A model generated the notes under the pieces. It had not been told where the DNA came from. It did no database searches and was given only the letters and a program-made list of their open reading frames with translations. A DNA stretch of 64,000 bases from Malachius bipustulatus (taxonomy: Eukaryota; Arthropoda; Insecta; Coleoptera; Melyridae). Positions 10,347 through 62,403 of this stretch are shown here, in pieces. The stretch spans positions 20,581,144 through 20,645,143 of the forward strand of contig OU342634.1 of assembly GCA_910589415.1 (NCBI GenBank), written 5' to 3'. Position 1 is the first letter of the stretch. Each line of letters starts with the position of its first letter. Made by a program: the position numbers and the translations under genes.

Positions 10347-11603
10347 ATGGAACCTAACAAGAACTTTAGCTCCGACGAGGGGAGCCATACCCTCGATCTC
10401 CCGGAAACGGAAGAACTATTGGAGATTGGTACCAATCCGACTCCAAATAACAGTCCGACCCCAGAAGATCGGGAAAGGGCGACGTTAAAGTCCCCAATCC
10501 CCGAATCTACGGGTCAGGAAAAGCTCTTGACTGAAGAGGGGTCCGATAAGACGGACCCTTCTTCAACAAGAAAACCGCGACTATCCGGAGCCGCAAGGAA
10601 ACGGCTTAGTCGTATGTTAAAAAGCGGGACTGACTACCAGACCGCTTTGAAAATAATCCTCGACGAACGTGACGCAGCCGGATCAATGGAGAGGGGCACA
10701 ACCCCCCCAGAACGATCCTTCACTGCGAAGCGAGGGAGGTCGGAGGAAAGCACTCCAACTGAACAGAGGCCAAAAAGGCCCTGCGAGGAAGGAGCTGCTA
10801 AGTTGTCATATGGGGACGCTGCCGCGGGTGTACGGGTTGGGATTATCCACCCGGACCATCCGAGGGCGTCCCTGAGTGACGAGCAACTGGGCGCTGTGCA
10901 GAGGTCAATCCTGACCGCTGTAGAGGAAATCCCAGACGGCGGGCCAGAGGTCAGATTCGAGCATTGCTCGAAACGGCCTGGATGGCTACTCATTACCTGC
11001 GCCGGGGAGAGGGCCGCCAACTGGTTGGAGGCTTCAGTTAATGACCTTAAGCCGTGGGAGGGCGCTCTCCTAAAAGCGGTGAGAGGTGATGAGATCCCCA
11101 AACCTCACATCTGTGTGGCCTTCATCCCGGATGATGACGAAAATCGTCTCACTCCGGATAGGGTGCTCACTAGGCTGAGGAAAATGAACACGGTTCTGAA
11201 CACGCGGGAGTGGATTGTTCTACACCGCGAAAATTCGGGACCAGGTCAAACATGGACCTTCGCCGTCGACGAAGCGTCCATGAAAGGACTTGAAGGGCTA
11301 GGGTTCCGACCCTACTTCGGTCTCAATGGGAGGGTGCTTTTCCGCCCTAAGATCCGAGGTGGGGGAATAGCCCAAAAAGCCCCTCCAAATGAAGGTCTGA
11401 TAAGAGACCGGGCCCCCCCGAAGGTGAGCGAAAAACCGCCCCTTCTGGCAGGGGAGCGCCCAAATCAAGCTGCCTTGGCAGGGCCGTCCGAGATGCGCGG
11501 GTTGCCCCAGATCAGAGCGGCCGCAAACCGCCTGGTAGGGGGACAGCCCCTCCTCGGCCTGGGCCGTCAGGGCACAAATACAAGGGGGGGAAGGGAAAAA
11601 TGA
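10347..11603 (+). CDS. LINE ORF1, gag-like protein with a DUF4780-type domain
   Basis: This is the RNA-binding, nucleocapsid-like protein of the LINE, expected to coat element RNA in the ribonucleoprotein particle. The first ATG of the open frame is at 10347; the frame upstream of it lacks an ATG. That gives about 418 residues. The N-terminal third is acidic and Ser/Pro/Thr-rich, followed by a basic stretch (R-K-R-L-S-R-M) and a K-R-G-R segment. The second half (about 11050-11360, with P-H-I-C-V-A-F-I-P and W-I-V-L-H-R-E-N) resembles the DUF4780 domain found in ORF1 of many insect LINEs. That assignment is recognition, not a search result. No CCHC knuckles are seen. Its stop TGA overlaps an ATG (ATGA at 11600-11603) that opens a short frame before ORF2. 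The frame is intact. Confidence 0.8.
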   Translation: MEPNKNFSSDEGSHTLDLPETEELLEIGTNPTPNNSPTPEDRERATLKSPIPESTGQEKLLTEEGSDKTDPSSTRKPRLSGAARKRLSRMLKSGTDYQTALKIILDERDAAGSMERGTTPPERSFTAKRGRSEESTPTEQRPKRPCEEGAAKLSYGDAAAGVRVGIIHPDHPRASLSDEQLGAVQRSILTAVEEIPDGGPEVRFEHCSKRPGWLLITCAGERAANWLEASVNDLKPWEGALLKAVRGDEIPKPHICVAFIPDDDENRLTPDRVLTRLRKMNTVLNTREWIVLHRENSGPGQTWTFAVDEASMKGLEGLGFRPYFGLNGRVLFRPKIRGGGIAQKAPPNEGLIRDRAPPKVSEKPPLLAGERPNQAALAGPSEMRGLPQIRAAANRLVGGQPLLGLGRQGTNTRGGREK

Positions 11604-11711
11604 ACCGCCCCCCCAGACAGAAAGAAAGCTCTGGTGCTACCGGGAAGGACAAATCCGCCCGGCCTGCACCAGAAAAGAAATAACCCCCCCCCCCCTCACC
11701 CCATACCCTTC

Positions 11712-14700: not shown

Positions 14701-15062
14701 GCGCGCAGATGCTGGATGAAACGCACTGCACGCGGAAAACAATTAAAATCTTCTCAGATAGCCAAGCGGCCCTAAAAGCCCTTTGCTCCATTCGTTGCAA
14801 TTCCAAACTAGTATGGAACTGTCAAGCAGCACTCAATGAGGTAGCTAAAAACAATAACTTGACTCTGGTCTGGATTCCAGGTCACTCCGGCCTTGGAGAG
14901 AACGAAATAGCCGACTCTCTGGCTAGAAGAGCAACTGAATCCAAATTTACAGGAACCTGCTCTTGGCATATCCTCAAATACTGCCAAAACAACAATAGAC
15001 ACCTGGGCGGAAAACAAGGTACTTCGGTACTGGCAAACTCTACCAGGATTAACTCACTCTAA
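11712..15062 (+). CDS. LINE ORF2: endonuclease, reverse transcriptase, RNase H (frameshifted near its 3' end)
   Basis: This polyprotein nicks target DNA and copies element RNA into the break. The frame is open from 11634, and the first ATG is at 11712. Domains in order: an APE-type endonuclease at about 11760-12450 (L-Q-E-P-W, G-C-D-A-N-S-H-H and the S-D-H-R motif); a reverse transcriptase at about 13080-13990 with F-L-D-I-E-G-A-F (13492-13515), C-P-Q-G-G-V-L-S-P and Y-A-D-D (13763 on); and RNase H at about 14560-14935 with the acidic set in T-D-G-S-K, Q-A-E-I-Y, S-D-S-Q-A and N-E-I-A-D-S-L. Near 14950-14990 the reading frame slips by one base, so this frame stops early at 15062 with a non-homologous tail. 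The true C-terminus continues in another frame to 15393. Confidence 0.88.
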   Translation: MCLTSQSTTQFPLHNSHIKCIQLNLQHATAASYVLGRRFIREQFEIALLQEPWLDKSGKIRGLGNLSAKVIAVGSEHSPRACILVKNNLNFYVLSDYCARDITTVKVTLPVGNSRTELIVCSAYFPGDRSAEQPPPTIVRNLVAYCRGNNLQLIVGCDANSHHLAWGSTDINERGESLYNFIIGEKLIVNNIGSKPTFVTKNRQEVLDITFSSNFISNRITNWQVSSEPSCSDHRQIVFDIEIGHRPIVEYRDPKRTDWSGYEKSLQTGLETVIPTIKNRDDIEIAAEQVRNAIISAYHENCPPKTKRNDRKVDWWNKDLEKRRKEVRRLFNRAKEMGNWDEYRTKLTEYYKEIRRSKRESWRRFCESIHDLPRSARIHKILSRDPTQPFGSIKRPDGSFTDSEKETLELLKENHFPGSSPLYNQWQLNSGGRINRPQKSEWKVCRSIITAKAIENAVKTFQPFKTPGEDGIFPALLQRGIKILTPSLIKLFRASLAWNYIPSSWAATRVVYVPKVGRTEPHPKSFRPISLTSFILKSLERILDVHIRRSVLVSHPLNVHQYAYQAGKSTDLALNNLVGKITKSLDNKEIMVGVFLDIEGAFNNALPNSLYEAAVSRGIEPVINGWIRNMLDSRMITTSMGGVEVSFRPGRGCPQGGVLSPLLWTLLVDDLLAILSLWRVEVQAYADDLVIMIKGNSERTISNVLQEVLQVTYQWCEREQMSVNPRKTVIVPFTRRKRLEDLIPPTLQGVVIPFAEEAKYLGITLDRKLLWNSHLEKIIHRAKLSLWSCKKICGRTWGTGPKQIHWIYVTIIRPMIAYGCVAWWSKGLQALAKMKLSSLQRQACLAISGAMSTTPSAAMEILLDLPPLHIYLEREARWTTYRLLQVARSTQMACVMERTSLLDDTQSHSLLGMPSDMMPYTTNHCTAYNVLFPSRDEWERNSNDLLKADLTWFTDGSKTPTGVGSGAYDAGSRREFFANLGQYATIFQAEIYAIVLSAQMLDETHCTRKTIKIFSDSQAALKALCSIRCNSKLVWNCQAALNEVAKNNNLTLVWIPGHSGLGENEIADSLARRATESKFTGTCSWHILKYCQNNNRHLGGKQGTSVLANSTRINSL

Positions 15063-16874: not shown

Positions 16875-17985
16875 CTGAGAAGAGGAAATAAGATTGGCTT
16901 TTACAGTTGGTGTTTAAATTCAGAAGTTTTTGAGTTATAAGAAAGTGAAAATCGTAATTTTTCGAGTTCAAGGCCCTGTACATAATGGTGTAATGGCGTC
17001 TTTTTAAAATTTTATTATAACAAAATTTTCTTTCTTCGATATTTTAGGCTAGGAATAAGATATCGAGATAAGGTTTTCACTAGCCTATTTAGGTATCATT
17101 TCTCTACATTTCTATGGAAAAATAGTTATATTATTGCATTTAACTTTTCAGAGAATTTTGCAATCTTCTGTTATTATATCAAAAAACGCCCTCTAGCGGC
17201 ATCACTAAAAATCAGGCATATACTGGGTAAGATGGGCTTGATGGAGTAATAAATGCTTTTTCCAATGAGACCAAGTTTGTTAAAATCCGTTCAGTTGTTT
17301 AGGAGTTATAGCTGTTTATTTACAAAAACATTCAATCACCCCCCACCACTTCATTTTAGTAGATATTTCAAAAAGTGCCAGACAAAAATTACTCGAATAA
17401 AGCTTGGATTTAAAACGCATATATTTTTTTGATACATTTACTGGGTGGATTTCAGTGAAAGATCACTTTAAATGTTTTGGAGCGCGGCTACGCCGCCTGG
17501 CGGCAATCTTGGAAACCTGAAAATAATTTCCAGGATTTTTTTTTGCCCACTTTAATCTAAACATTTTTTAACGGAAGTCTCTATGACGAATAGTTTCCGA
17601 GATACAGCACTTTGCATTCTTATCTGCCCACCCTGTACAACGAAATCGGTTCAAGATAGAGGAAAACGGCTTACATGTCCCTATTTTAACTTTTTATGTA
17701 CTATCCTATGGTGTAGTTTGTACTTTCTTTGATTTTTTTATTAGGCGACGCGTGGAGAAATCTCAGATTTTTTCAAATTTTTTATCACCCTGTATAAATA
17801 TTTCATCTACATCATAGGATAGTACATGAAAAGTTAAAATAAGGACATGTAAGCCGTTTTTCTCTATCTTTAGCCGTTTTCGTTGTACAGGGCCTTGAAC
17901 TCGAAAAATGACGATTTTCACTTGTTTATAACTCAAAAACTTCTGAATTTAAACACCAACTGTAAAAGCCAATTTTATTTCCTTC
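16875..17985. repeat. Nested foldback element 5
   Basis: The outer arms at about 16880-16980 and 17895-17985 are reverse complements (ttggcttttacagttggtg against caccaactgtaaaagccaa). The interior at about 16982-17635 is unrelated and ends cccaccctgtaca, as if another TACAGGG element had inserted. The block at 17636-17900 holds the gaaaacggcttacatgtcc module in inverted pairs. No coding capacity is seen. Confidence 0.7.
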
Positions 17986-25700: not shown

Positions 25701-28700
25701 GTAGACGTGTAAAAATCCTTCTCAATCTTTATTAACAAGTCTCTGGGAGATTACAGAAAGTTTTGTATATGTATGGAACTCCCTTAATTACATCCCCATC
25801 TCATTTTTGGATTCATATTTTTATGGTGTTTTTCTACCCATAACACCTATAAGTAACAGGAGAGCAGTTTTTAATGAAGTCATTTCTTAGCAAAAACAGG
25901 ACGCAGTAGACCTCAAAATAATCGAGAAGTTCGTTGATCGCAGAGCTCGCAGAAAATAATTTCAGTACATTAATTTGACATCGATTCATGCAATACTTAT
26001 ACATTGCTCATTAATTAATAATAATTATATTTCAAACCTGTATTATTATAAGTGCCCTGACCTTCAGCAGCAATTTCGAAAGTATCTACACACTGTCAAG
26101 TTTGTTTTTATCATTTTGGCCCAATTTTTTACACGCAACAACACTACATGATCCCTCCATACACATTTATTTGGATGGTAAATGTGAGAAACAGGGTTTC
26201 GATGGTCAGCTAGTTTGTTTCGTGCTTCGTCATATCAAATAATAGGTATTGATAATACATATAAGAACTGATTTTTTTCAGTGAACAGATTTGTGTCACC
26301 TGCCATCCAAGACAAAGAGATTAGATATAACTTCTCGATTAAGTAACTTATGCACAGCTAAAATTTTGGTTTATGTATGTATATATGTATTTACAGCCAA
26401 GTAATTTTTGTATAATCATGATAAAAAAAAACTACTATCTGAGTCCCATATCACTTTTCAGAAAAACAATGAGTTTGGAATTGCTGAAGTTATTGCCCCA
26501 AAGCGTGGGAATATTATGAATATTTGAAAATAATATTTATACAGCTGTTGTTATCTGTTATTTATCAGAATGTTATCACTGAAGACGTCACTCAACTTCA
26601 ACTAAAACCTTTGGAATTAGAACTAGTTGAAGAACATAAATTACAAGAAACATGAAGAATGATTTTTATTGAATGAATTTTACTGAACATATTGAGCATT
26701 TAGGGTTGTTATATAAGCTATTTAAATTCTTATAGATTTCACTTTAGAATTTTTTTACTTTTATGTTGCTTGCTCATTCGGCCATCAAATAAGAATTATT
26801 TTTATTAAAAAAATATTACATAGGAGTAGAAAGGGCGCCACCTGGGCAGATTGGATTTCCCTAGATCTAGGGAAAAATGGCAGTCTAGGGAAATTTTACC
26901 TGAACTGACCTGGCCTCATGCAGAGCCGACGGGACCTGACCGGACCACATGCAGAGCCGGCGGGGTCTGACCCGGCCTCACGATAGCAATAAATCTGTCA
27001 ATTTAATAGCTTATTTATGTAAATTAGGGTCATTAATCATATACGGAAAGCAATACTAATGAGTTCTTTTGTTATCGGGGGTCATTAATCACGCCCACCT
27101 GTCACTCCTTTGTTCGGCGGCCCTTTGTCGGTGTTCCTTTGTGTGAAATACAATAGAATTAATTATGTTGTTATTTATAACCCTCACGTGTCACTGAATA
27201 TAAATTGTATAATTAAAAAAAACCTAATCCCTTAATGTCATTTTAATTGTTATTTATTATACCTATTATGACCCCACGGAGATAGCGGCGGTACCTATGA
27301 GGTGCACACCTGCACCATTAATCATATCCGGAATGCAATAAACCTATCAAGTTAATTGTTATTTATGTACATACCTGCATCAGAAACAGATAAGATCTCA
27401 GAGTGTTCAACGGAAACCAAGCTTCGACACGTCAGAAAACAGCGCACCTGCACCCTGTCCTTTGTTCGGAAACACAATAGACTAATGAGTTCTTAGAAAT
27501 CGGGGGTCATTAATCACGCCCACCTGTCACTCCTTTGTTCGGAGGCCCTTTGTCGGCGGTCCTATGTCTGGAACACAATAAAGCTGCCGGTCATTGCTAT
27601 GTGAACACAAAAGAGGAGTCAAGTTAATACATCCAATTCTACAAGCTTCGACACGTCTGAAAGGGACCACCAACATTGAAAACCGTTATTATGTTAATAC
27701 ATAGGTCCGTCGCACCCACCAGCATCGAAAACCGGTATTCACTACGAAGACCTACCTGCATACGTACCCACACACCTAGCCAACTACTACCTGCACCGAA
27801 AACCGGTATTATATGACTCACCACGGAGACAACAAGCTTCGACACGTCTGAAATTGAATTATATGAAGAGTTGGGGCATAGGTCCACTACTTGATGGACC
27901 AATCAGAATAAAGATAATCGAGGGGTGGGGGTAGAATATCGGGCGTATGATGTAGGGGAGGGGGTAACTACACTACTTGATGGACCAATCAGAATAAAGA
28001 TAATCGAGGGGTGGGGGTAGAATATCAGGTGTATGATGTAGGGGAGGGGGTAACTACTGAATATAAGTACCCAGATATGCAGCGTTACTACCATATAGTC
28101 TTCTGATTGAGTGCGCGAAGATACTTCTCAAGAGGTTGAAATTTGTGAAAAGATGGCTTTCTCTATTGTCGACGAATACACCAAGACAAACCAACGATAC
28201 AAGTTGAAACAGCACATAGTTGAGATTATACTGAACCCTCTGAAACGAGAGGTAGTCAATCCAGAGAAATGGCTCCAAGACGGGCTTCGGGGTGTGTTCA
28301 ATTATATTGTGGAAAATGTGAACCCCGAGGACAAAGTAGGAATGACGTTCACAGCCGATGAGTTTAACGGGGATTTCCACATACCGTTCAAACAAGTGGT
28401 GAATTTACGGTTCGAGGAACTCTGGAAGAGACTCCACATATTATATCAGAGTAATAAGGCCGGGGTAGAGGGTGATACCTTCAAAATTATAGCAACCAGT
28501 TTCACCCCGTATAAGGGCTCAGGGCGAAACACGCAAGTATCGTTGACATATGCCGAGGATTGTGCCATGAGAAAGGGGATAGTTACAATCAATAATAAGG
28601 ATAATTTGTGCTTGGTTCGTGCACTAGTGGTCGCTATGTCATACCTCCAGAACGTACCATATTTGAAGCAAGTGAGACAAAATATAGGAAAGAGACAGGA

Positions 28701-31700
28701 CGAGGAAGTGCAGAAATTAATACAAGAGTCGGGGATTAACGTACCACAGGAAGGAGCGGGGTTTGAAGAACTACAATTATTTCAGCGATATCTGAAGGAA
28801 TACAAGATTGTCGTGTATTCTTACGGAACAAAGGGAAGAGATGTGTTATTCGAAGGACCTGACACCCCACTCAGAATCAATCTTATCCATCATAACAACT
28901 ACTATAACGTTATAACAAGCCTGACTTCCGCGTTTTGTTGTCGTTATTTTTGCCAAGACTGCAATGTTCCTTATGACCACAAGGAAAAACATAGATGCAG
29001 AGCCCAATGCCCCTGCTGCACTCGTAGGCCCCCGTGCCCAAAGATAGGTAATGAGATAAGCTGTGAAGACTGTAGTCGGCGATTCAGAGGACAACAATGC
29101 TACGATAATCACAAAGCAGCTGGAAGGAACGGTAAATCACTCTGCGACAACCTAAAAAGATGTAAAGAATGCCTAAAATCGATTAAAGCAGGGCGCCAAC
29201 ATTATTGCGGGGAATTTTTCTGTAAAGTTTGTAAAAAACACATGCCCTCGAACCATCTGTGCTACATACAAAAAGACACAGGGAAGCCCAAGCTTGATGA
29301 TACGTTATTCGTATTCTATGATCTGGAAACCCGACAAGATCAAGTCAACAACCTAGGAGAGAACGTTCATATTCCCGTGCTATGTGTCTTCCAGCAACGA
29401 TGCAGCGAATGTTTTAGCTCCTACGGAGATAACGAGTGTGAGAAATGCGGTGTTCGGCAACATATTCTGCAAGGCGAGAATGCTGTTGAGCTCTTTTTCA
29501 ACTACCTATGGAGTCTGAAAATTTTTAAAAGTATCGTTGTTGTGGCTCACAATGGAGGGTCATTCGATCATCAGTTTATATTTAGACACGTGCTGGAGAA
29601 AACAGATCTGAAGCCTGAAATAATTAAACGTGGAAGCAAATTACTTATGCTGACGGCAGGGAAGCTCAAATTTATCGATTCGATCAATTATTTCCCTATG
29701 AAACTATCAGCCCTACCGAAGGCATTCGATTTGAAAGAATTGAAGAAAGGTTACTTCCCGCACCTGTTCAATACCAAGGCTAACGAAGACTACGCCGGTG
29801 CAATACCCGACGCCAAATATTACTCTCCAGATACCATGAAGCCGGCCGATCGCAGCGAGTTCATGGAGTGGTACGAACAGCAGAAAGGTAAATACTTCGA
29901 CATGTCTCGGGAAATAATCAACTATTGCGTGTCGGATGTCGATATTCTCACGAATGCATGCCTCAAGTTCCACAAGATGATGATGGAGCAGGGAAACGTC
30001 TCGCCATTCACCGAGGCAATTACTATTCCAGGAGCCTGCAACAAACTATTCAGACGTGGTTTTCTGAAACCGAACACAATCGGCGTTTTACCTAAGAACG
30101 GGTTCAGGAATGCAGACACACAATCCAAGATCGCTCTACAGTGGTTAATTTACGAAGAGGAGCAGAGGGGACTTGTAATACAACACGCCGGACGCCAGAG
30201 AGAGGTCAATATATGCGGTGTAAAAGTGGATGGCTTTTGTGATGGGCAGGTGTTTGAATTTCACGGCTGCTATTTCCATGGCTGCCTCACGTGCTACCCT
30301 ATTAATCGAGAGAAACCTAGTCACGAAGACCCCACCGATACTATGGAAGCAAGATATGAAAGGACAACGAAAAAGACAGAGAGACTAAGACAGAAAGGGA
30401 TAGAAGTTGTGGAGATGTGGGAGCACGAGTTCAGGCAGTTGTTGGACAACGATAAAAATCTCAAAGACGGGTTGGATAATCATCCTATGCTTAGGAGTCT
30501 GCCACTGAACCCTCGTGACGCATTCTACGGTGGACGGACTGGTTGCACCAAGAGTCACTATTGTGTTAAGGAGGGGGAGAAGATCAAATACGTCGACGTG
30601 TGCTCCCTTTATCCGTGGGTGTGCAAGTACGGCAAGTTTCCTGTGGGGCACCCAAAAGTTCTCTTAGGTGAGGAGCCCAAGGAGGGACTTATTAAATGCA
30701 AGATACTGCCACCTACAGACCTCTATCACCCCGTTCTTCCGATGAAGGCAAACGACAAGTTAATGTTCGCTCTCTGCCATACATGCACAATGGAGCTCAA
30801 TCAGAGCGACTGCAACCATACAGACGATGAAAGAGCATTGACAGGTACGTGGGTCATAGATGAAGTCCGGAAGGCCGTGGAGTGTGGCTACAAGGTGCTT
30901 GAAGTGTATGAGGGATGGGAGTATGACACCACACAGTATGATGGGAATTCAGGAGGCTTGTTTACTGAGTTTATGGACAAATTCATCAAAATAAAGCAAC
31001 AGGCTTCCGGTTGGCCTGCGGAGTGCGTCACCGAAGAGCAGAAAAACGCATACATAGTGGCCTTCATGAAGAGTGAAGGTATACAGATGGAGCAGGGGGA
31101 AATTGTAAAGAACGCAGGACTCAGATCGCTGGCTAAATTAATCCTCAACAGCTTCTGGGGAAAACTAGGACAGCGCGAAAATCAACCTAAATGTGTGATC
31201 GTACGTCAACCTCAGGAGCTGTATGATTTGGTCAGTAATCCAGCTATAGATGTCACCCATATGTCGATTATTAACGACACAGTGCTCCTGGTTAGCTACA
31301 CCCTTAAAGACGAAGCGGCAGATGTAATTCCAAGCGTTAATGTGGCGATTGCGGCATATGTGACAGCTCAGGCTCGACTCAAGTTGTACTCGTATCTGGA
31401 GAGGCTCGGCGAGAGAGTACTATATTACGACACAGGTAATTTTCGATTTTTTTTTCAATCCCCGCTGTATTCTCTAATATGATATAAATTTAGCATATGA
31501 GTTTAATAGGATATTTCAGAACATGTTTCTTCTTTTTTGTTTCAGACTCCGTTATTTATGTCTCCAGAACAGGTGAATGGGATGTACCTACGGGGTCGTC
31601 GCTGGGTGAAATGACAGACGAACTGGAAGAATATGGCCAGGGGGGATATATAGAAGAATTTACCTCTGCAGGCCCAAAGAATTACAGCTTTAGAGTTGTC

Positions 31701-34700
31701 TGTCCTACCACAGGGTATCGAAAAGAAATATGCAAGGTTAAGGGTTTTAACCTCAATTACCGCACTTCACAGCTAATCAACCCCCACAGCATGAAGAAAA
31801 TGGTATGTGGCCCCAGCGAACCGATCCTGATCGAAAACGATCAGATACGGAGAACAAATACCCACGAAATAGTGACTAAGACCGAAAAGAAGGTTTATAG
31901 ACACTGCTTGGAGAAGCGAAAATTTACCACTGATCATGACTCAACGCCGTATGGTTATAAAAAACCTCGAAATTAATAATTTTTTTTGTATCCAGCCCCA
32001 TATCCATACTACCATAATAAATGCAATGAGATTTATTTTAAGACAATTTGTAAAATATTAATGTACATATTACCTAATAAGGACAATTAAGTACTTGTAT
32101 TATAAAGATAATGATTGGCCTTGTTTAATATTAATGTAAAATATTCATATTTTAAATGTATGTGTTTCTTTTGATATAATTCTTACGCTTCTACTACTCT
32201 GAAAATAAAATTTTCAAATGATTTTTTTTATATATCAATCCATACTCATTCCTGAAGTAGTCGCATCCGAAGTCGACAAGTTTCAGCACGTCTGAAATTA
32301 AAGAGTTTCAGCACAAGTAGGTATCATCTTTTATTTAATAATATTACAGCTAAGTCAATATGCTATTATTTATCTAAGATAACCGCCATGTAGTCTAAGA
32401 CTGACAGCGGGATATCCAGCGAGGGAATTCCAAACATGACAGGTCTATTACACCCACCATAATTAACGACCCCAGACGGTAGTGGCGACCACCCTGTGTA
32501 TCGTTCGCCCGGAGCTCAGTCTGGAATACAATAGAGTTGCACACATGCATCCGGTCTTTTGTTCGACGATCCTTTGTTGGAATACAATAGGGTTAATTAA
32601 GCAGAGGTACGTCGACTTGTCGGCAGCCGCACACCTGCACCCTATTGCATAACTGCTCAGCTCGGACCAAGTCAAATCTGCTTGTTATCAAGTCTCGGAT
32701 ATCGCGGGTCAACGCTTGTTCATCTCCTATCGCATCTGACCATTGCCTTGCAGTTAGGCCTGACCAAATCTCATAGAGTTTGACTGTAGCGTCGCGCATC
32801 GGACTGGTCAACGTCTGATCGTCTCGTATCGAACTGGTCAACGTATGATCATCTCTTATCGGATCTGGCTGACGGTGGGGACCTGATCAGGGTATCCGGG
32901 TTTTGTTCTGCCACATATACTTATCGATTTTGGTTGACTATCACATCTCGGTTCTGACGGGGTATCTATGGCTTTATGGCTTGGTCATGTACGTAGGACT
33001 AGGGTAGGTAGCGGAAACGTGGTAGCTGAAACTCGATGAATGGCATAGACTGGTAGCTGAAACATAAGTGTAGATAAAATGACAGTTATAAAATTCTGTA
33101 AGATAACAATTATTAAGACTGTATGATTAGGTGGCAGTTGGCCAAAAATGACAACATGGCACTCGATAAGTGTGCAGGTTTATACCCATGTTATCAAGAT
33201 GCTAACAGGGAAACATTCGATTATTACCCTCAGCAACTTGAACAGCGTTGTCACATTGAGAAAACCGGTAGGCGATCACGGATTAACGGCTAGTCATATC
33301 TTATCGGATCTGGCCTACGGCGTCGAGTATTGCTTTCATGTGGCCGGGTCAGAGCCTGTCGGCTCTGCCTGAGCCCCGGTCAGCTCGGATAAAATATTAC
33401 AGAGTCCCGGTCAGCTAGATTAAACATTACAGACCCCAGGTCAGCTCGGATAAAATATTACAGAGCCCCGGTCAGCTAGATTAAATATTACAGACCCCCG
33501 GTCAGCTCGGATAAAATAAGTGCAGCTAGCGCTGCCCACTAATTGCCGCTAGCGGCCATATATCTGACCCGGCCACATGAAAGCAATACTCGACGCCGTA
33601 GGCCAGATCCGATAAGATATGACTAGCCGTTAATCCGTGATCGCCTACCGGTTTTCTCAATGTGACAACGCTGTTCAAGTTGCTGAGGGTAATAATCGAA
33701 TGTTTCCCTGTTAGCATCTTGATAACATGGGTATAAACCTGCACACTTATCGAGTGCCATGTTGTCATTTTTGGCCAACTGCCACCTAATCATACAGTCT
33801 TAATAATTGTTATCTTACAGAATTTTATAACTGTCATTTTATCTACACTTATGTTTCAGCTACCAGTCTATGCCATTCATCGAGTTTCAGCTACCACGTT
33901 TCCGCTACCTACCCTAGTCCTACGTACATGACCAAGCCATAAAGCCATAGATACCCCGTCAGAACCGAGATGTGATAGTCAACCAAAATCGATAAGTATA
34001 TGTGGCAGAACAAAACCCGGATACCCTGATCAGGTCCCCACCGTCAGCCAGATCCGATAAGAGATGATCATACGTTGACCAGTTCGATACGAGACGATCA
34101 GACGTTGACCAGTCCGATGCGCGACGCTACAGTCAAACTCTATGAGATTTGGTCAGGCCTAACTGCAAGGCAATGGTCAGATGCGATAGGAGATGAACAA
34201 GCGTTGACCCGCGATATCCGAGACTTGATAACAAGCAGATTTGACTTGGTCCGAGCTGAGCAGTTATGCAATAGGGTGCAGGTGTGCGGCTGCCGACAAG
34301 TCGACGTACCTCTGCTTAATTAACCCTATTGTATTCCAACAAAGGATCGTCGAACAAAAGACCGGATGCATGTGTGCAACTCTATTGTATTCCAGACTGA
34401 GCTCCGGGCGAACGATACACAGGGTGGTCGCCACTACCGTCTGGGGTCGTTAATTATGGTGGGTGTAATAGACCTGTCATGTTTGGAATTCCCTCGCTGG
34501 ATATCCCGCTGTCAGTCTTAGACTACATGGCGGTTATCTTAGATAAATAATAGCATATTGACTTAGCTGTAATATTATTAAATAAAAGATGATACCTACT
34601 TGTGCTGAAACTCTTTAATTTCAGACGTGCTGAAACTTGTCGACTTCGGATGCGACTACTTCAGGAATGAGTATGGATTGATATATAAAAAAAATCATTT

Positions 34701-37700
34701 GAAAATTTTATTTTCAGAGTAGTAGAAGCGTAAGAATTATATCAAAAGAAACACATACATTTAAAATATGAATATTTTACATTAATATTAAACAAGGCCA
34801 ATCATTATCTTTATAATACAAGTACTTAATTGTCCTTATTAGGTAATATGTACATTAATATTTTACAAATTGTCTTAAAATAAATCTCATTGCATTTATT
34901 ATGGTAGTATGGATATGGGGCTGGATACAAAAAAAATTATTAATTTCGAGGTTTTTTATAACCATACGGCGTTGAGTCATGATCAGTGGTAAATTTTCGC
35001 TTCTCCAAGCAGTGTCTATAAACCTTCTTTTCGGTCTTAGTCACTATTTCGTGGGTATTTGTTCTCCGTATCTGATCGTTTTCGATCAGGATCGGTTCGC
35101 TGGGGCCACATACCATTTTCTTCATGCTGTGGGGGTTGATTAGCTGTGAAGTGCGGTAATTGAGGTTAAAACCCTTAACCTTGCATATTTCTTTTCGATA
35201 CCCTGTGGTAGGACAGACAACTCTAAAGCTGTAATTCTTTGGGCCTGCAGAGGTAAATTCTTCTATATATCCCCCCTGGCCATATTCTTCCAGTTCGTCT
35301 GTCATTTCACCCAGCGACGACCCCGTAGGTACATCCCATTCACCTGTTCTGGAGACATAAATAACGGAGTCTGAAACAAAAAAGAAGAAACATGTTCTGA
35401 AATATCCTATTAAACTCATATGCTAAATTTATATCATATTAGAGAATACAGCGGGGATTGAAAAAAAAATCGAAAATTACCTGTGTCGTAATATAGTACT
35501 CTCTCGCCGAGCCTCTCCAGATACGAGTACAACTTGAGTCGAGCCTGAGCTGTCACATATGCCGCAATCGCCACATTAACGCTTGGAATTACATCTGCCG
35601 CTTCGTCTTTAAGGGTGTAGCTAACCAGGAGCACTGTGTCGTTAATAATCGACATATGGGTGACATCTATAGCTGGATTACTGACCAAATCATACAGCTC
35701 CTGAGGTTGACGTACGATCACACATTTAGGTTGATTTTCGCGCTGTCCTAGTTTTCCCCAGAAGCTGTTGAGGATTAATTTAGCCAGCGATCTGAGTCCT
35801 GCGTTCTTTACAATTTCCCCCTGCTCCATCTGTATACCTTCACTCTTCATGAAGGCCACTATGTATGCGTTTTTCTGCTCTTCGGTGACGCACTCCGCAG
35901 GCCAACCGGAAGCCTGTTGCTTTATTTTGATGAATTTGTCCATAAACTCAGTAAACAAGCCTCCTGAATTCCCATCATACTGTGTGGTGTCATACTCCCA
36001 TCCCTCATACACTTCAAGCACCTTGTAGCCACACTCCACGGCCTTCCGGACTTCATCTATGACCCACGTACCTGTCAATGCTCTTTCATCGTCTGTATGG
36101 TTGCAGTCGCTCTGATTGAGCTCCATTGTGCATGTATGGCAGAGAGCGAACATTAACTTGTCGTTTGCCTTCATCGGAAGAACGGGGTGATAGAGGTCTG
36201 TAGGTGGCAGTATCTTGCATTTAATAAGTCCCTCCTTGGGCTCCTCACCTAAGAGAACTTTTGGGTGCCCCACAGGAAACTTGCCGTACTTGCACACCCA
36301 CGGATAAAGGGAGCACACGTCGACGTATTTGATCTTCTCCCCCTCCTTAACACAATAGTGACTCTTGGTGCAACCAGTTCGTCCACCGTAGAATGCGTCA
36401 CGAGGGTTCAGTGGCAGACTCCTAAGCATAGGATGATTATCCAACCCGTCTTTGAGATTTTTATCGTTGTCCAACAACTGCCTGAACTCGTGCTCCCACA
36501 TCTCCACAACTTCTATCCCTTTCTGTCTTAGTCTCTCTGTCTTTTTCGTTGTCCTTTCATATCTTGCTTCCATAGTATCGGTGGGGTCTTCGTGACTAGG
36601 TTTCTCTCGATTAATAGGGTAGCACGTGAGGCAGCCATGGAAATAGCAGCCGTGAAATTCAAACACCTGCCCATCACAAAAGCCATCCACTTTTACACCG
36701 CATATATTGACCTCTCTCTGGCGTCCGGCGTGTTGTATTACAAGTCCCCTCTGCTCCTCTTCGTAAATTAACCACTGTAGAGCGATCTTGGATTGTGTGT
36801 CTGCATTCCTGAACCCGTTCTTAGGTAAAACGCCGATTGTGTTCGGTTTCAGAAAACCACGTCTGAATAGTTTGTTGCAGGCTCCTGGAATAGTAATTGC
36901 CTCGGTGAATGGCGAGACGTTTCCCTGCTCCATCATCATCTTGTGGAACTTGAGGCATGCATTCGTGAGAATATCGACATCCGACACGCAATAGTTGATT
37001 ATTTCCCGAGACATGTCGAAGTATTTACCTTTCTGCTGTTCGTACCACTCCATGAACTCGCTGCGATCGGCCGGCTTCATGGTATCTGGAGAGTAATATT
37101 TGGCGTCGGGTATTGCACCGGCGTAGTCTTCGTTAGCCTTGGTATTGAACAGGTGCGGGAAGTAACCTTTCTTCAATTCTTTCAAATCGAATGCCTTCGG
37201 TAGGGCTGATAGTTTCATAGGGAAATAATTGATCGAATCGATAAATTTGAGCTTCCCTGCCGTCAGCATAAGTAATTTGCTTCCACGTTTAATTATTTCA
37301 GGCTTCAGATCTGTTTTCTCCAGCACGTGTCTAAATATAAACTGATGATCGAATGACCCTCCATTGTGAGCCACAACAACGATACTTTTAAAAATTTTCA
37401 GACTCCATAGGTAGTTGAAAAAGAGCTCAACAGCATTCTCGCCTTGCAGAATATGTTGCCGAACACCGCATTTCTCACACTCGTTATCTCCGTAGGAGCT
37501 AAAACATTCGCTGCATCGTTGCTGGAAGACACATAGCACGGGAATATGAACGTTCTCTCCTAGGTTGTTGACTTGATCTTGTCGGGTTTCCAGATCATAG
37601 AATACGAATAACGTATCATCAAGCTTGGGCTTCCCTGTGTCTTTTTGTATGTAGCACAGATGGTTCGAGGGCATGTGTTTTTTACAAACTTTACAGAAAA

Positions 37701-40700
37701 ATTCCCCGCAATAATGTTGGCGCCCTGCTTTAATCGATTTTAGGCATTCTTTACATCTTTTTAGGTTGTCGCAGAGTGATTTACCGTTCCTTCCAGCTGC
37801 TTTGTGATTATCGTAGCATTGTTGTCCTCTGAATCGCCGACTACAGTCTTCACAGCTTATCTCATTACCTATCTTTGGGCACGGGGGCCTACGAGTGCAG
37901 CAGGGGCATTGGGCTCTGCATCTATGTTTTTCCTTGTGGTCATAAGGAACATTGCAGTCTTGGCAAAAATAACGACAACAAAACGCGGAAGTCAGGCTTG
38001 TTATAACGTTATAGTAGTTGTTATGATGGATAAGATTGATTCTGAGTGGGGTGTCAGGTCCTTCGAATAACACATCTCTTCCCTTTGTTCCGTAAGAATA
38101 CACGACAATCTTGTATTCCTTCAGATATCGCTGAAATAATTGTAGTTCTTCAAACCCCGCTCCTTCCTGTGGTACGTTAATCCCCGACTCTTGTATTAAT
38201 TTCTGCACTTCCTCGTCCTGTCTCTTTCCTATATTTTGTCTCACTTGCTTCAAATATGGTACGTTCTGGAGGTATGACATAGCGACCACTAGTGCACGAA
38301 CCAAGCACAAATTATCCTTATTATTGATTGTAACTATCCCCTTTCTCATGGCACAATCCTCGGCATATGTCAACGATACTTGCGTGTTTCGCCCTGAGCC
38401 CTTATACGGGGTGAAACTGGTTGCTATAATTTTGAAGGTATCACCCTCTACCCCGGCCTTATTACTCTGATATAATATGTGGAGTCTCTTCCAGAGTTCC
38501 TCGAACCGTAAATTCACCACTTGTTTGAACGGTATGTGGAAATCCCCGTTAAACTCATCGGCTGTGAACGTCATTCCTACTTTGTCCTCGGGGTTCACAT
38601 TTTCCACAATATAATTGAACACACCCCGAAGCCCGTCTTGGAGCCATTTCTCTGGATTGACTACCTCTCGTTTCAGAGGGTTCAGTATAATCTCAACTAT
38701 GTGCTGTTTCAACTTGTATCGTTGGTTTGTCTTGGTGTATTCGTCGACAATAGAGAAAGCCATCTTTTCACAAATTTCAACCTCTTGAGAAGTATCTTCG
38801 CGCACTCAATCAGAAGACTATATGGTAGTAACGCTGCATATCTGGGTACTTATATTCAGTAGTTACCCCCTCCCCTACATCATACACCTGATATTCTACC
38901 CCCACCCCTCGATTATCTTTATTCTGATTGGTCCATCAAGTAGTGTAGTTACCCCCTCCCCTACATCATACGCCCGATATTCTACCCCCACCCCTCGATT
39001 ATCTTTATTCTGATTGGTCCATCAAGTAGTGGACCTATGCCCCAACTCTTCATATAATTCAATTTCAGACGTGTCGAAGCTTGTTGTCTCCGTGGTGAGT
39101 CATATAATACCGGTTTTCGGTGCAGGTAGTAGTTGGCTAGGTGTGTGGGTAGGTATGCAGGTAGGTCTTCGTAGTGAATACCGGTTTTCGATGCTGGTGG
39201 GTGCGACGGACCTATGTATTAACATAATAACGGTTTTCAATGTTGGTGGTCCCTTTCAGACGTGTCGAAGCTTGTAGAATTGGATGTATTAACTTGACTC
39301 CTCTTTTGTGTTCACATAGCAATGACCGGCAGCTTTATTGTGTTCCAGACATAGGACCGCCGACAAAGGGCCTCCGAACAAAGGAGTGACAGGTGGGCGT
39401 GATTAATGACCCCCGATTTCTAAGAACTCATTAGTCTATTGTGTTTCCGAACAAAGGACAGGGTGCAGGTGCGCTGTTTTCTGACGTGTCGAAGCTTGGT
39501 TTCCGTTGAACACTCTGAGATCTTATCTGTTTCTGATGCAGGTATGTACATAAATAACAATTAACTTGATAGGTTTATTGCATTCCGGATATGATTAATG
39601 GTGCAGGTGTGCACCTCATAGGTACCGCCGCTATCTCCGTGGGGTCATAATAGGTATAATAAATAACAATTAAGATGACATTAAGGGATTAGGTTTTTTT
39701 TAATTATACAATTTATATTCAGTGACACGTGAGGGTTATAAATAACAACATAATTAATTCTATTGTATTTCACACAAAGGAACACCGACAAAGGGCCGCC
39801 GAACAAAGGAGTGACAGGTGGGCGTGATTAATGACCCCCGATAACAAAAGAACTCATTAGTATTGCTTTCCGTATATGATTAATGACCCTAATTTACATA
39901 AATAAGCTATTAAATTGACAGATTTATTGCTATCGTGAGGCCGGGTCAGACCCCGCCGGCTCTGCATGTGGTCCGGTCAGGTCCCGTCGGCTCTGCATGA
40001 GGCCAGGTCAGTTCAGGTAAAATTTCCCTAGACTGCCATTTTTCCCTAGATCTAGGGAAATCCAATCTGCCCAGGTGGCGCCCTTTCTACTCATAGGTAC
40101 TAGCTATCGTCATGATAATAATTAAAATCAACCAAGTATACTTATATTATACCTATTACACGAATGGGGGTTAAGTCACCATTTTGATTATTGTAAACAC
40201 TAAGGAGTATTTAACGTTTACTTATATAAATAACTAAGATAAAACATGTGTATAAAACAAAATTTCTATAAATAAATATTCAATACACATAATGTTAAAG
40301 AAGATAAATTTATAATTAAAAACAAATAACATACCGCAACGATAATCGACAAAAAGTTGCGTATGTTAACAACCCCGTGTTGAGATTTTAAGGTTACAAA
40401 ATAATTCCAGGAGATAAAGGTTGATTTTTTTGATTTAGGTTCATGTTAATTAATGTATAATATATTGAAAGTATGTGTAGATCGGCAAATGTGAGAATGT
40501 TTTTACTGATAGTGGTACATACGCGTGGTTTTTATCGTATTTATCAAGTGACCCATGCAAGATCACATACAAAGATGACGAACAACTAGGACAATAAAAT
40601 AATATAGTTTTGAAACTTATTCGCTACCACAGAAACAACAAATGTTCACTGGATCAAATGTTGTCAAGTTTAATGATAGTAGTTCCTGATTTGATAGTGG

Positions 40701-43700: not shown

Positions 43701-46700
43701 TTGGATAGTTTGTCGCAAGTGCCGTAAGCATATTGCTGGGAACCTAGTTATTGGGTGAAAGGCCTTATTCCTTGAAATAGGTAAAACAAAGAATCAACGA
43801 ATACTTAACGAATATTTTTACCAAATTATTTAATCTTTAACTTCCAAGAAAACACAGAATGATCGATAATCTCGATCACAACGTAAAATACGTCGAAGAT
43901 GTTTTATCATGGATTGATACCTACCAGCAGACACCATAGGGGACGTTCGCCTCAGGGCACGATGACGTCGTTACTCATGTCAACTTTCTCAGTTTCAAAT
44001 GAGCTTTAAAATAAGCATCAAACAACTTCTATTATAATTCCTAATGCAGATCTAATACAGATCTACAAATTATTCGTCATTTGACAAGGAAGCAAAACCC
44101 AACAAATAAATAGAAACTGTCAAAATACACATTTCTAAGTCCAAAAGGATGATCAGTGAAAGAAATTGCTTTCCTTGAATTTCTAAAATACTTTCAAAAT
44201 ATTCTGAACTGTTATTTCAACAATAGGAAGAGTCACTCTTGACTTGCCACTTCCAATAAGACAATTTCTACTTTTCTACTCCCAGAGAAATTAGGACAAA
44301 TATGATAATTCCCGACCTTGTCATTTCTGCTAGCTGACAGTCCACGGAGTCCTGTTCTGAAAGACTTTTTCTAGGATGAGGATGAAACCTGAGCATTAGC
44401 CCTAGACGCTTTTGCTTTTGGGTAGCTCGGGTCCGCTTAGACTAGCTCTACGGCTCTCTAGGCGTGTAGCAGAGTCGTTATCTCCGAGAAAAACAATGTC
44501 TGTAAAAAGGGCTGAGCGCCGTGGATCAGGCAGGTTTCAGAAAGACAACGTCATAAACTCAGTTCAGATTTCAGAATCACAAAAAATCTTCTAGTAAGAA
44601 AGTAACACGCTTTGAAGTGCGTAGAAACTTTTTAGCGTGCTCTCGTCTTTCCGTTGTTGGGATTCTAGGCCCCGGCAGCGTGTGGAATTCGAGTCTTTCT
44701 TCCGAGTAACCTATATCTTAGCGTTTCCCTAGATTAAATCGTCATCAAGCTCCAACATAATTTAGGTATTCCGCCGGCGAGCGAAGTGTTACTGTGCCTT
44801 CGTGGGGAAGTAACAATATAAATATATATATAAAAAAAAAAAACAAACAAATAAATAAATAAATAATTAATTGATATACAAATAAATAAAAATACCGCCG
44901 GCGAGCGATGGTCTGGTTTGCTGTGCCCTCGTGGGGAGCAAAAATATAATAAAAAATTGTAATAAATAATATTCCGTTGACGAACGATGCCGCAAAGCGA
45001 TGCCGCTGACGAGCGAAGTTATACAAATTGTTCGAATTGGTTGAATTGGTCTAATTATGGGGAATTACGCCGTTGTGCGTATCTATAACTTGGTAAATAA
45101 AACAGTAACCCATTAATATATCTAAAGAGAGAAGGGAAAACTCGGCGTTGATAAATTTAACAAGTCAAATGAATCAAAATCACAAATATGTAAGGCAGTC
45201 TCAAAACTTGTCCAAAGGTGACACAAGCCTAAAATGGCAACATATTATAAATAATAATAAAACTTGTCCAAAGGTGACACAAGCCTAAAATGGCAACATA
45301 TTATAAATAATAATAAAACTTGTCCAAAGGTGACACAAGCCTAAAATGGCAACATATTATAAATAATAATAAAACTTGTCCAAAGGTGACACAAGCCAAA
45401 AGGACAACATATTATAAATAATAATAAAACTTGTCCAAAGGTGACACAAGCCAAAATGGCTACATATTATAAACTATCATTAAATTTGTCCAAAGGTGAC
45501 ATCAGTAAAAAACTGACATAAACAAAAATTAAACAAGTCCAAAGGTGACAAAAGCTAAACCGACCAACATTAGCCAAAACTGGCAATATCTTATGAGCAA
45601 ATAAAAGCTAAGTCAAAATTGACAACCAATACATAAATAATTTTAATTGATCAAATAACGCCGGTGAGCGTATTATGACATTGACCTATAAACGCCGGCG
45701 AGCGTATTGTAACAATTTATTAGATTTGCCCAAACTGGCAACACTTATTATGTCAGGAAATCTGACAAATTATAATAAAACAATCAAATGAAATAAATTA
45801 ATGAATTCAACCAAAATAAACGAGATGAGCCTAAAAGTGTGAAAATGAATATGACTAAATACTAAATTAATTAGAAAGCCATTTATTAAGAAATGAGCCA
45901 TAAAGTTTATTAAATCAGTAACAATCAAATCTTATATGCAGTCATCAACATAAATGTCCATGAATCAAATAAGCAAGCTTATCAATTTCAGAATGTGTAC
46001 AACAAAATGAAACTTTTATAAAATTCTTAAATAAACAGAAATAGACAAAGTATTTTGAATTGAGAGTCTTTAAAGTAACAATTTAGAAGCCGAAAATTGT
46101 TGTTTTTAATTAAGTGTATAATAAGCACTTGCATATTAAGATTTAGGTACTGTCTAATTTCGTATTTCTCTAGAAACTGAGGACAAATGGTAAAGGTCAT
46201 AATACCACAAGGGTCTCCAGATCAAGGGATAAATCGAACCAAGCCGAAGATTCAGATGAATTATTTTTATAAGTAAAGCCTAAAGTACCGCGAGAACTCA
46301 TTGAAAATTTCATATAAGATCTAGCAAAACACAGTTGACAGGAAAATTAGTACATTTCTGAAAGAATAGCAAATTGTAAATTTCTGATAAACAATCAAAG
46401 TCAAAACTGTGAATAATTATTAAAGAAATTATAATTCAGTCTAATCGAATAATATGAGCTGACAATTAAATAAGTAATCTAATAAATTAAAACATAAATT
46501 CCAATCGAACCAGATTTTAAATAAAAAGAAACTGTTAGTTGCTGTAAAATAGTGTAGACCCAGAAAATATTTAATGTTGAAAATATAATTTCATAAAGAC
46601 TAGATGAATAACTGTTGCTGTTGTAAAAATTCCGGTTCTTTCAATAATAAAATAATTTAAATCTCGAGGCAGAGAGTTTTGTAGTTTATGATCAATGCCT

Positions 46701-49700: not shown

Positions 49701-52700
49701 GGAGGCATATTTCCTCTTGCTCTGAAATCGGCTAAGGTAATTCCTATATACAAGAATAAAGGAGATATTAACAATCCCCACAGTTACAGGCCAATTGCCA
49801 TTGTGCCACTGTTGGGTAAAATATTTGAAAATATTTTATGTAAAAAAATCACAGGATTTCTGACGGCAAATAATATCCTGGGTAGACAACAGTTTGGTTT
49901 CAGATCAGATAGGAGTACTGGGGATGCAATAAGGAAAATAGTTGAGGAGGTGGTGGAAGGTCTGGAGAATTCGCGGACCACAACGGCGGTGTTCTGTGAC
50001 CTCCAGAAGGCTTTTGACTGCGTCTCACATGAGATATTGCTAGACAAATTAAATAAGATTGGCATAAGAGGCGTAGCACTTAAATTGTTTCATAGTTATT
50101 TGGTGGGGCGAAGTCAATATGTGTCAGTAGATCAGGTTTCGTCGCGAGATTTGATGACGTGTTGTGGAGTGCCTCAAGGCTCAATCTTGGGGCCCACACT
50201 TTTCCTTGTTTACATCAACGATTTCGCAGAACACATGAAGGGAACTAACATTACGCAGTACGCAGATGACACTACTATGGTTATAACATGTTGTAATGCA
50301 GCGGAGACAGACCTTCGAGTTAGTGAAGCGATAAGAAAAGCTGAAAGCTGGTTCACACTTAATAAATTAAAACTTAATAAAGAAAAAACTCAAATTATGA
50401 CATTCTCAGTTGACCCAAAATATAAGCCACAACAAATTATCAAAGCACTTGGGGTGGTCTTGGACCACTCCCTTAAATGGGGACCCCACATAGACGAGGT
50501 TTGTTCGACCTTATCTCGTCATATATTTGTATTACGTCAGATAAGAAAATGTGCAGATGTCAATGCAGTCAAAACTGCATATTTTGGAGTGATCCACAGC
50601 TACCTTAGTTACTGCACGTTATTGTGGGGAGGTGCTAAAGACAGTATAAGAGTTTTTAAAATTAAAAAAAAAGCGGTCAGGGTTATAGCAGACAATGGTC
50701 CTAGAGATTCTTGCCGTGAGCTCTTCAAATCCTTCCAGATATTAACACTCCCGTGTATTTATATTCTGCAAAATTTGGTGTATATTCATAGAAACATTAT
50801 AAATTTTAGAACAAATTATCATATCAGCGGTATTGAGACAAGATATGCGGACCACATAGCGTCAAAAAAATACAGACTTGGCATGTCTTATAAAACAGTC
50901 TATTATTCAAATGCTACAATAAGCTACCACATGAAATAAAATCTCTGAATATTTACCATTTCAAGAGAAAAATTAAAGGATATTTGACTACCAATGTCTT
51001 CTATTCAGTGCAGGAATTTTTAAATGGACCATCTAATTGGTAATTCACTGCTGTGCCTCCATCTTTGATAGCTCGTTTCAAAGCGTTAGGCTGTAATTTA
51101 TAGGTATATTCTGTTGTTAATATTCACCTGACTTCCATAAATGTAATATCTATGTACATGACAAGTGGAAAATAAAATATCTATCTATCTATCTATCTAT
51201 GTAAAGAGCACTTATCCCACCCATTATTAGGTAATAATCAATATTACCGCACTAGTACGTTAAGAATTCTATTAACGCACAAGTGCGGTTATAATGTACA
51301 AAATACGCTAACAAGGCCTTTTAATTAGCGTCATTATTTACGTTTTTCTTGGCACGCACCATTTCTTGGATCTGCTATACGTCAACTGGTGTTTTACTGT
51401 TGACCTATCAGGTAAAAAGAGATACTTAGGAGATATCAGAATAACTTTTGTAGCGGCTTCTTTAAGATAATATGATGGAATATCTGAATCGAATATGACT
51501 TTGTTTTTGCTTATATTAGTTTTAATTAATAAACTTGCTACCACCAAACGTACTTAGTTACGCTGTAACTAATGTATTCATCCATAGACAACAAGTCACG
51601 AACCAGCTGGTTAAAACTTCCACCATTTCCGATCAAGACAAACGACAGATTATGAACACCGAAGCCAAGACACCCAGACTTTATGGACTGCCAAAGATAC
51701 ACAAGCTTAACGTGCCTCTTGGTCCAATTATCAGTGCCTTTGGTTCTCTGACATATTCTCTGGCCAAATATCTAACCAATCTGCTGCAGCCACACGTCGG
51801 ATATACAGCATCCCATATTAGAGACTCGGGTCACTTCATAGAAAAACTTGAATCTTTAACCCATCATTCCAATAATTACATTCTCGTCAGTTTTGATGTC
51901 GTTTCCCTCTTCACCATGGTGCCCATCGACGAGACTCTCCAACACATTCAGCGCATCTTTCATAGGGACATCTCCTATGTCTTCCACCACACCCTATTTT
52001 CAGTGGAATGGTGACTTCTATGAACAAAAGGATGGAGTCGTTATGGGAAGTCCACTGAGTCCTGTTGTCAACTTCTACATGGAATTCTTTGAAGCCAAGG
52101 CGTTAAGCTCCGCCATCAACAAACCGTCTTATTGGTACCGCTACGTAGATGACACTTTCGTCATTTTGCAGTATGGGAAAAAGGCCCTGGAGGAATTTCT
52201 TCACCATAGAAACAGTATTTACCCCCGCATTCAGTTCACGATAGAAATATAACAGGATGGAAAACTACCGTTTCTTGATGTCCTCGTTAACAGGAATGAA
52301 AATGGCACCTTGAGGAACAGGGTCTACCGAAAACCATCATCTAGGCCAAAAACGAGCAGTAGTAAAAACCCTGGTGAATCGTGCATCCAGAATTTTCCAG
52401 AACACCTCCAAGAAGAGCTAGCCCACCTAGATAATGCTCTGTAGGCGAATGACTACGCAGCTCAAGAAATCAGGAGAGGCTTACGATCCAGAACCCAACA
52501 TCACACGACACCCAGCGAACAACCACCAAGAGTTTTGGGAGCTACATTTCTCCGTTCAGCTAAAGACCTCATCGATACACTTTCTTCCGCTGAAGTTTAT
52601 AGAATACTTTGCTGTATGCATCGGAACCAACAAACGCAGCGTCAACAACTGCCGCCTGGGCCAGACAGACAAGTATACAGGCTGTTTTGTAATTGAATGT

Positions 52701-61200: not shown

Positions 61201-61340
61201 CAAGAGCAGACAAAATACAAAAGATACAGCAACAGTAAATAAAATCAATTGAAAGAAAGTAACTACGTTTGATTTAATGAACTGCAATTTAGATTATAAA
61301 AAAACCCTATTGCGTTAATTTTATTAAAAATAATGCATTA
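58215..61340. other. Upstream intron (or 5' region) of the ABCG gene
   Basis: AT-rich sequence upstream of the Walker A exon. I searched the minus strand by eye for the missing N-terminal exon and found none. A short piece near 59810-59880 (ctagatcctagggggttagt, then ggccgccatattg) is related to foldback 2. Confidence 0.5.
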
Positions 61341-62218: not shown

Positions 62219-62403
62219 TAGTAAGTTTCTTTTATATTGCGAAAAAATAGACAGATTCTTTGGTCAAAAATAAACAAAAAATCTACAAAGATATTTCGGT
62301 AACCTTTTGAGATTCTACTATTTCAGTTTTAGTTTAGAGACTCTTAAGCCATGTAGATGCTTTTTTCAATGGGTCTTGAACTGTTGATATAATTTGCCAA
62401 AAG

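Follow-up and report, generated by a model that had tools for sequence, protein, structure and literature searches.

What kind of mobile element consists of two long inverted arms in which only a DNA polymerase gene can be recognised? The question is raised by a 13.3-kb palindrome in a 64,000-nucleotide stretch of the genome of the beetle Malachius bipustulatus (hereafter the window), which maps to C6:20581144-20645143 of the host assembly. We consider it likely that this element belongs to a family of palindromic Polinton derivatives that is proliferating and whose members carry their own replicase, would replicate by snap-back, much as a defective-interfering genome does, and would be integrated in trans. 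The same layout recurs at other loci of the assembly, and a gene-bearing Polinton in the same genome shares the family's left end and polymerase.

The inverted arms of the window element (26825-33353 and 33563-40091) are each 6,529 nt long, align without gaps and differ by three substitutions (27242, 27764 and 30537), of which the single one within a gene is silent. The element begins with AGTAGAAAGGGCGCC and ends with GGCGCCCTTTCTACT (AGTAG...CTACT). Its inverted terminal repeats begin AGTAGA, and the arms are far longer than is usual for Polintons/Mavericks. CATAGG lies immediately outside both termini; lengths of 4-9 were tried and the flanks match at 6 only, while two random 6-mers of the window agree by chance with a probability of 5.6e-4. 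Beyond CATAGG the flanks are unlike each other. Each arm carries one family-B polymerase gene, both genes point toward the centre, and the protein is identical in both arms. A preliminary description, made from the letters of this DNA, had reported the arms, the AGTAG...CTACT ends, CATAGG and one polymerase gene per arm; all are real, with the arm length corrected from 6,528 to 6,529 nt. It had also given the arms one common centre; an unpaired stretch of 209 nt (33354-33562) separates them there. The features are as follows.

26819-26824, unstranded: left 6-bp target-site duplication, CATAGG
26825-33353, plus strand: left arm, 6,529 nt, with the left-type end AGTAGAAAGGGCGCC
26856-26875, unstranded: perfect 20-bp palindrome TTTCCCTAGATCTAGGGAAA near the tip (self match, arm positions 32-51)
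26905-26972, unstranded: subterminal 31-bp repeats, with a diverged copy at the centre
27885-28057, unstranded: two 86-bp repeats upstream of the polymerase gene
28153-31435, plus strand: polymerase gene, exon 1, with a putative terminal-protein-like domain, an OTU-like domain, a cysteine-rich part, exonuclease, Vsr-like nuclease, and motifs A and B
30226-30432, plus strand: Vsr-like nuclease insert within the polymerase
31436-31545, plus strand: 110-bp spliceosomal-type intron within motif C
31546-31976, plus strand: polymerase gene, exon 2
33328-33386, unstranded: 59-bp diverged copy (81%) of the subterminal region, spanning the junction of arm and centre
33354-33562, unstranded: 209-nt centre, with repeats of about 30 bp and the hairpin tip
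33563-40091, minus strand: right arm, an inverted copy of the left arm
34940-35370, minus strand: second polymerase gene, exon 2
35371-35480, minus strand: second polymerase gene, intron, the mirror of 31436-31545
35481-38763, minus strand: second polymerase gene, exon 1, with one silent difference
40092-40097, unstranded: right 6-bp target-site duplication, CATAGG

Copies of the element form a family in the host assembly rather than a single rearrangement. The tabulation of copies proposed in the preliminary description was run with the polymerase as query on the 544,256,285 bases (52 contigs) of the assembly, and scoring covered 41 of the 330 first-look candidates, which makes the counts lower bounds. 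At least 41 polymerase matches are present, and 24 of them form 12 convergent pairs, all in the order plus then minus and tail-to-tail, as in the window. Tips of the form AGTAGA(A/T)AGGG were identified at the loci. Ten of the 12 pairs are flanked by perfect 6-bp duplications, every one different (CATAGG in the window, and AATGTC, TACAAC, GACGAA, TGCTTC, TTCATT, CGGGAG, AATTAC, AAGGTT and ATTGTA elsewhere), and at C1:20.0M the flanks AATGTA and AAGGTA agree at five of six positions. Ten tip-complete pairs, one of which has the unmatched flanks considered below, span 12.6-13.5 kb. Six of the other matches look like three broken pairs, and another is a fragment lying within a paired copy. The remaining ten comprise the C16 Polinton and C4 copies described below, an unpaired match at C16:27.68M, five partial or degraded matches, and two at 42% identity (C2 and C14). 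The 12 paired loci, ten of them with perfect duplications of their own, show that the family is real and has many copies, and it seems to have been active recently; because of the paired loci a unique rearrangement was rejected, and chance or artefact is very unlikely as the source of the layout.

A 17,800-bp Polinton at C16:10172401-10190200 (L010) has CTCCTC on both sides and a polymerase 97% identical to that of the window. Pfam matches within it are to rve (2.8e-12), Pox_A32 (4.6e-7), a phospholipase A2-like domain (8.1e-12) and a double-jelly-roll capsid (7.6e-73), and there is a weak tblastn match (E 1.8e-4), without Pfam support, to a frame presumed to encode the protease in another Polinton contig (L002). 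Its length includes a reverse-transcriptase frame of 965 amino acids, apparently inserted. The left tip is 85% identical to that of the window over 40 nt and the right tip 38%, and similarity to the arm ends at 10178097, 14 bases short of the start of the integrase match. The idea that L010 is a truncated one-armed copy was rejected, as tblastn places an integrase directly beyond it. A 10.5-kb copy at C4:1930641-1941180, with TCCAGT on both sides, has one left-type and one right-type tip. Integrase was not found in L012 and L044 by tblastn with the Polinton integrase; the reading of L054 covered its frames and its matches to the arm. Because the C16 and C4 elements each have one left-type and one differing tip, the palindromes are, judged by their ends, left-end/left-end derivatives of a Polinton with unlike ends. 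The preliminary description had suggested a search for full Polintons with the same termini, and the C16 element is such a relative, with one end the family's and the other different. It had also named a finding that would count against it, namely the same ends around a normal Polinton gene set with the window copy a unique rearrangement; the same end does occur on a normal Polinton, and the 12 paired copies dispose of the rest.

Besides the polymerase, no second gene was found when nine of 12 stop-masked frames from non-coding sequence of the left arm and the centre were scanned with Pfam at E 0.1; coverage of the three minus frames of 26825-28152 was by two open reading frames only. Frames of L001 and L002 (integrases, and presumed capsid and protease) gave no tblastn match in the element, with the polymerase as a control at 9e-170. 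Neither tblastn nor Pfam scans of frames found an rve integrase, or ATPase, protease and capsid genes, in the element, and the frames scanned contained no Pfam transposase. Scans of viral contigs found no relatives. The capsid and protease labels of L001 and L002 are our own, assigned by position; Pfam backs their integrases and polymerases and, besides these, only a TBP-like frame. L001 and L002 are stray integrase-bearing Polinton contigs filed under bacterial metagenome genomes, and in L002 the TBP-like frame (Pfam TBP, 1.5e-27) adjoins the integrase. An estimate of element size from the sizes of contigs with protein matches was dropped, as matches to long interspersed nuclear elements (LINEs) give similar sizes.

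A source of integrase would be needed elsewhere in the genome if the palindromes are inserted in trans. The Polinton integrase query (L002) gave 144 match rows, the best 34-39% identical, with some genes counted as two rows. Many rows lie in open frames of at least 300 amino acids, and the weakest lie in long retroelement-like frames. On the strength of these rows, Polinton-type integrase genes are abundant, and the genome is rich in possible helpers.

The polymerase matches Pfam DNA_pol_B_2 at 4.2e-43. Its GT...AG intron of 110 bp splits the catalytic YYDTD motif, and the spliced frame has 1,237 codons. Among 120 listed relatives, of which the named ones are insects, with many beetles and leafhoppers, the DTDS/A motif is missing in 10; four of these 10 (P0003, P0027, P0040 and P0046) have DTG and then a stop or a change at the codon of the window's intron. 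A tree built by a quick method from 87 of these relatives, the window and L001 places all four in the window's 11-row clade (SH-aLRT 99), and at least four further rows of the clade continue unbroken through the intron codon. The intron is thus likely to have been passed down within one clade of nuclear elements, since the four DTG relatives share the clade, with losses or several gains, since other rows of it are unbroken. Between copies, the ratio of non-synonymous to synonymous substitution rates (dN/dS) has a median of 0.18 and runs from 0.14 to 0.33, as measured in those 114 of 120 pairs in which dS exceeds 0.02; the set comprises 16 stop-free copies, one arm each, and its pairs share ancestry and are not independent. 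By this measure the polymerase was under selection while the family spread.

Structure prediction gave a polymerase model with a mean pLDDT of 71.6. The best viral structural match is an adintovirus polymerase (E 1.1e-21, but with a TM-score of no more than 0.28, hence a match by parts), the best solved-structure match is phi29 polymerase (E 1.1e-7), and an OTU domain (OTUD3) matches at E 6.9e-3. The order of strands and helices at the N-terminus is similar to that of the terminal-protein domain of Polinton polymerases as described in passages of PMC11071308, and Ser114 is invariant in 24 sequences; the N-terminal part may be a terminal-protein-like domain with Ser114 as a candidate linking residue. 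The Vsr-like nuclease is located between the exonuclease and polymerase domains, and 111 of 121 proteins have its motif. Diverse homing-endonuclease inserts are carried by Polinton polymerases, according to the same passages (PMC11071308). The nuclease was considered as a private transposase and set aside, since the polymerases of the integrase-bearing Polintons L001 and L002 have the motif too.

Over the polymerase part, arms of the same copy diverge by 0-0.18% in the 12 pairs, and copies diverge from one another by a median of 3.18% (range 0.06-4.05%, 66 comparisons). Its own partner is the nearest arm for 18 of the 24 paired arms (one tied). Because arms within a copy are near-identical while copies differ, one arm seems to be re-copied into both. 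The inner region is self-complementary throughout (96.5-99.9%), with no unique centre, in six of 11 pairs tested; the other pairs have a centre of 125-311 nt or are irregular. Positions 1-206 of the window's 209-nt centre are found on both sides of the axis in C1:1.87M, the nearest relative of the window copy (forward 100%, reverse 98.5%), so one side was probably lost from the window copy. Losses of this kind are known from long palindromes.

An imperfect axis hairpin of 80-103 nt lies between GATAAAATA and TATTTTATC in eight of 10 fetched centres; of the other two, L035 has undergone rearrangement and L037 is without one of its sides. The hairpin halves are 77-95% identical within a copy in seven of the eight, and those of L038 are nearly symmetric. 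Mean identities between copies are 0.895 within half class A, 0.877 within class B and 0.815 between A and B, a contrast that is partly circular because the classes were named by a motif within the halves. In five of the eight copies, the 150 nt adjoining the tip are 99-100% alike between arms. Unlike halves next to alike arms would be expected if the hairpin tip is inherited and both arms are copied from one.

We propose that the left end of a Polinton and its polymerase gene were mirror-duplicated, giving a molecule of about 13 kb with two left ends, and that integrase, ATPase and capsid genes were lost. Protein priming by the polymerase would initiate replication at the AGTAG ends. A single strand of the palindrome is self-complementary and could fold into a hairpin of about 6.7 kb with a short imperfect tip; copying round this hairpin, or snap-back self-priming at the tip, would restore both arms from one. 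The linear product may then be inserted in trans by the integrase of other Polintons, leaving the 6-bp duplications. More tentatively, and with slightly less than even confidence, we suggest that the family is a self-maintaining hairpin-replicon lineage, in which the palindrome would be the genome form itself, with an inherited imperfect tip, both arms remade in each cycle, at least 12 loci, a selected replicase and a borrowed integrase; it would be the chromosomal equivalent of a defective-interfering genome, turned into a transposon family.

Several observations weigh against the main proposal. The integrase match of the C16 Polinton is limited to residues 56-232 of 375 and lacks the C-terminal part, which is listed for many other copies; because the match is partial, this Polinton may itself be defective and its integrase truncated. 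The inner 790 nt or so of the arm have no counterpart in the C16 pieces other than a 59-bp subterminal-like match, so the founder is not a simple fold-back of the C16 copy. In one of the 12 pairs, C13:21.38M (L017/L018), the flanks CTCTGA and GTCCAC do not match. The reverse complement of CTCTGA is carried by the unpaired copy at C16:27.68M (L019), which points either to an exchange of arms between loci, as within a palindrome, or to a wrong assembly join. The putative OTU catalytic His is Tyr in both arms of the window element (around residue 264 of P0001), and it is His in the 78 relatives with a readable motif (42 of 121 rows are unreadable); because of this replacement the OTU step may be impaired in the window copy. 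For six of the 24 paired arms (L005, L006, L017, L018, L029 and L030), the nearest arm comes from a very close other copy. In L034, L036 and L042 the 150 nt adjoining the tip are only 75-78% alike, for which a difference in repeat-unit number is our guess.

Arm identity could also arise after insertion, by gene conversion between arms as in chromosomal palindromes. Conversion, too, predicts near-identical arms, and the three of eight copies with unlike sequence beside the tip would then be cases of incomplete homogenisation. We think it unlikely, since the arms are near-identical in 12 of 12 pairs though copies differ by up to 4% in the polymerase part, and since the axis-tip halves of seven copies stay unlike (77-95%) where conversion should act as well. 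A polymerase-only class that inserts itself with the built-in Vsr-like nuclease is highly improbable: the wide occurrence of the nuclease motif and the failure of tblastn and Pfam scans of frames to find an integrase in the element would suit it, but the motif is shared with polymerases of integrase-bearing Polintons, and the C16 Polinton shares both the 6-bp duplication and the left end. Least credible of all is an assembly artefact in which collapsed or mirrored reads turned one arm into two. Long near-identical palindromes are difficult to assemble, and the reversed C13 flank at C16:27.68M would fit such an error; mirrored reads, however, should produce inverted flanks, whereas the 6-bp duplications are direct in 10 of 12 pairs, the flanks of the window element are otherwise unlike, and each arm has differences of its own. 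Palindromic Polinton derivatives with a replicase of their own are also what the preliminary description envisaged in one of its two options, a foldback derivative using an integrase in trans. As far as sequence can, the similar left end, the 97% polymerase identity to a gene-bearing Polinton and the 144 integrase rows support that option, in which an integrase would act on these ends. Its other option, a separate polymerase-only class, was not borne out as to origin, given the kinship of left end and polymerase with the C16 Polinton.

A sibling family is represented by C14:11188058-11200587 and C2:52217073-52229599, which are flanked on each side by TACGTC and by ATTCAC, respectively. The sibling tips are AGTAGAAGTGG, the repeats are about 1.93 kb (99.3% identical, measured in C14), and the polymerase, with the 42% identity given above, has one in-frame TAG. 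Sibling non-coding DNA matches the arms in parts, at about 80-95%. The C14 sibling has a frame of 268 amino acids (ORF268, L045:2373-3179, equal to C14:11196573-11197379), flanked by non-coding DNA that resembles the DNA around the palindromes' polymerase. ORF268 had no convincing Pfam match, and a protein search gave no homologue. Integrase was not found in the flanks fetched for the sibling elements.

Other repeats occur in the window. A LINE at 10203-15062 has ORF1 (DUF4780) and an adjoining endonuclease-reverse transcriptase-RNase H frame of 1,152 amino acids, both open; its GC content is about 0.45-0.55, compared with about 0.3 in the neighbouring DNA. Further inverted repeats of foldback type, five in number and 0.8-1.7 kb in size, lie at 198-1851, 16883-17983, 52674-53455, 56371-57212 and 61325-62234; the first, second and fifth have sequence in common, and none of the five matches the palindromic element at E 1e-3. 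An 87-nt unit is repeated five times at 45203-45511, with a spacing of 55-56 nt.

Polintons/Mavericks (adintovirus-type) are the known elements nearest to the family. Shared features are the protein-primed-type family-B polymerase, AGT-type ends and 6-bp duplications; passages on vertebrate Mavericks describe 6-bp duplications, two end motifs of which (AGT)2 is one, and intact Maverick open reading frames as intronless (PMC8097293). Unlike these elements, the window element is a palindrome with two identical left ends and 6.5-kb arms, has an intron in its polymerase, and has no integrase, ATPase, protease or capsid gene that could be found. Typical Polintons are 15-25 kb long in the part of PMC6431247 that treats them, against 13.3 kb in the window. 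Because of its smaller size and the lack of a detected integrase, capsid, ATPase and protease, we class the element, on sequence grounds, as a Polinton derivative and not as a Polinton. Maverick copies of the Hessian fly with the polymerase domain only or the integrase domain only are described as fragmented pieces in an excerpt of PMC8504770. Reports of palindromic or polymerase-only Polinton families were not among the matches listed in a literature search, with most subscription papers and Repbase outside its scope.

Protein priming is the presumed mode of Polinton replication, and the literature passages at hand describe no replication intermediate. The palindromes may hold a trace of one, with arms apparently remade from one and a recurring imperfect hairpin. 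They also show that a replicase-only derivative can multiply, with 12 palindromic pairs against one gene-bearing Polinton and one 10.5-kb two-ended copy, a contrast for which surroundings were examined at two unpaired places (the C16 Polinton and C4). Helper-parasite dynamics of virus-like transposons become testable inside one genome.

Foldback elements such as FB and Galileo are similar in that long inverted arms fill most of the element. They have a P-type transposase and other duplication lengths. The passages available link Galileo to P elements, whereas the window element has Polinton ends and a 6-bp duplication. Adenovirus palindromic derivatives are inverted duplications of one end of a protein-primed replicon, and yeast linear plasmids reportedly have hairpin and inverted-dimer forms (Kikuchi is said to have described them in 1985); both have the same inverted end duplication as the family here, but they are not transposons. 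The snapback (defective-interfering) genomes of adeno-associated virus are likewise self-complementary molecules with one end duplicated, and passages of PMC8235507 describe them as symmetric or with a small loop and as replicating with helpers. Those are genomes in parvovirus particles, whereas the palindromes of M. bipustulatus are chromosomal insertions with target-site duplications, have an open and selected replicase gene, and have multiplied in the genome.

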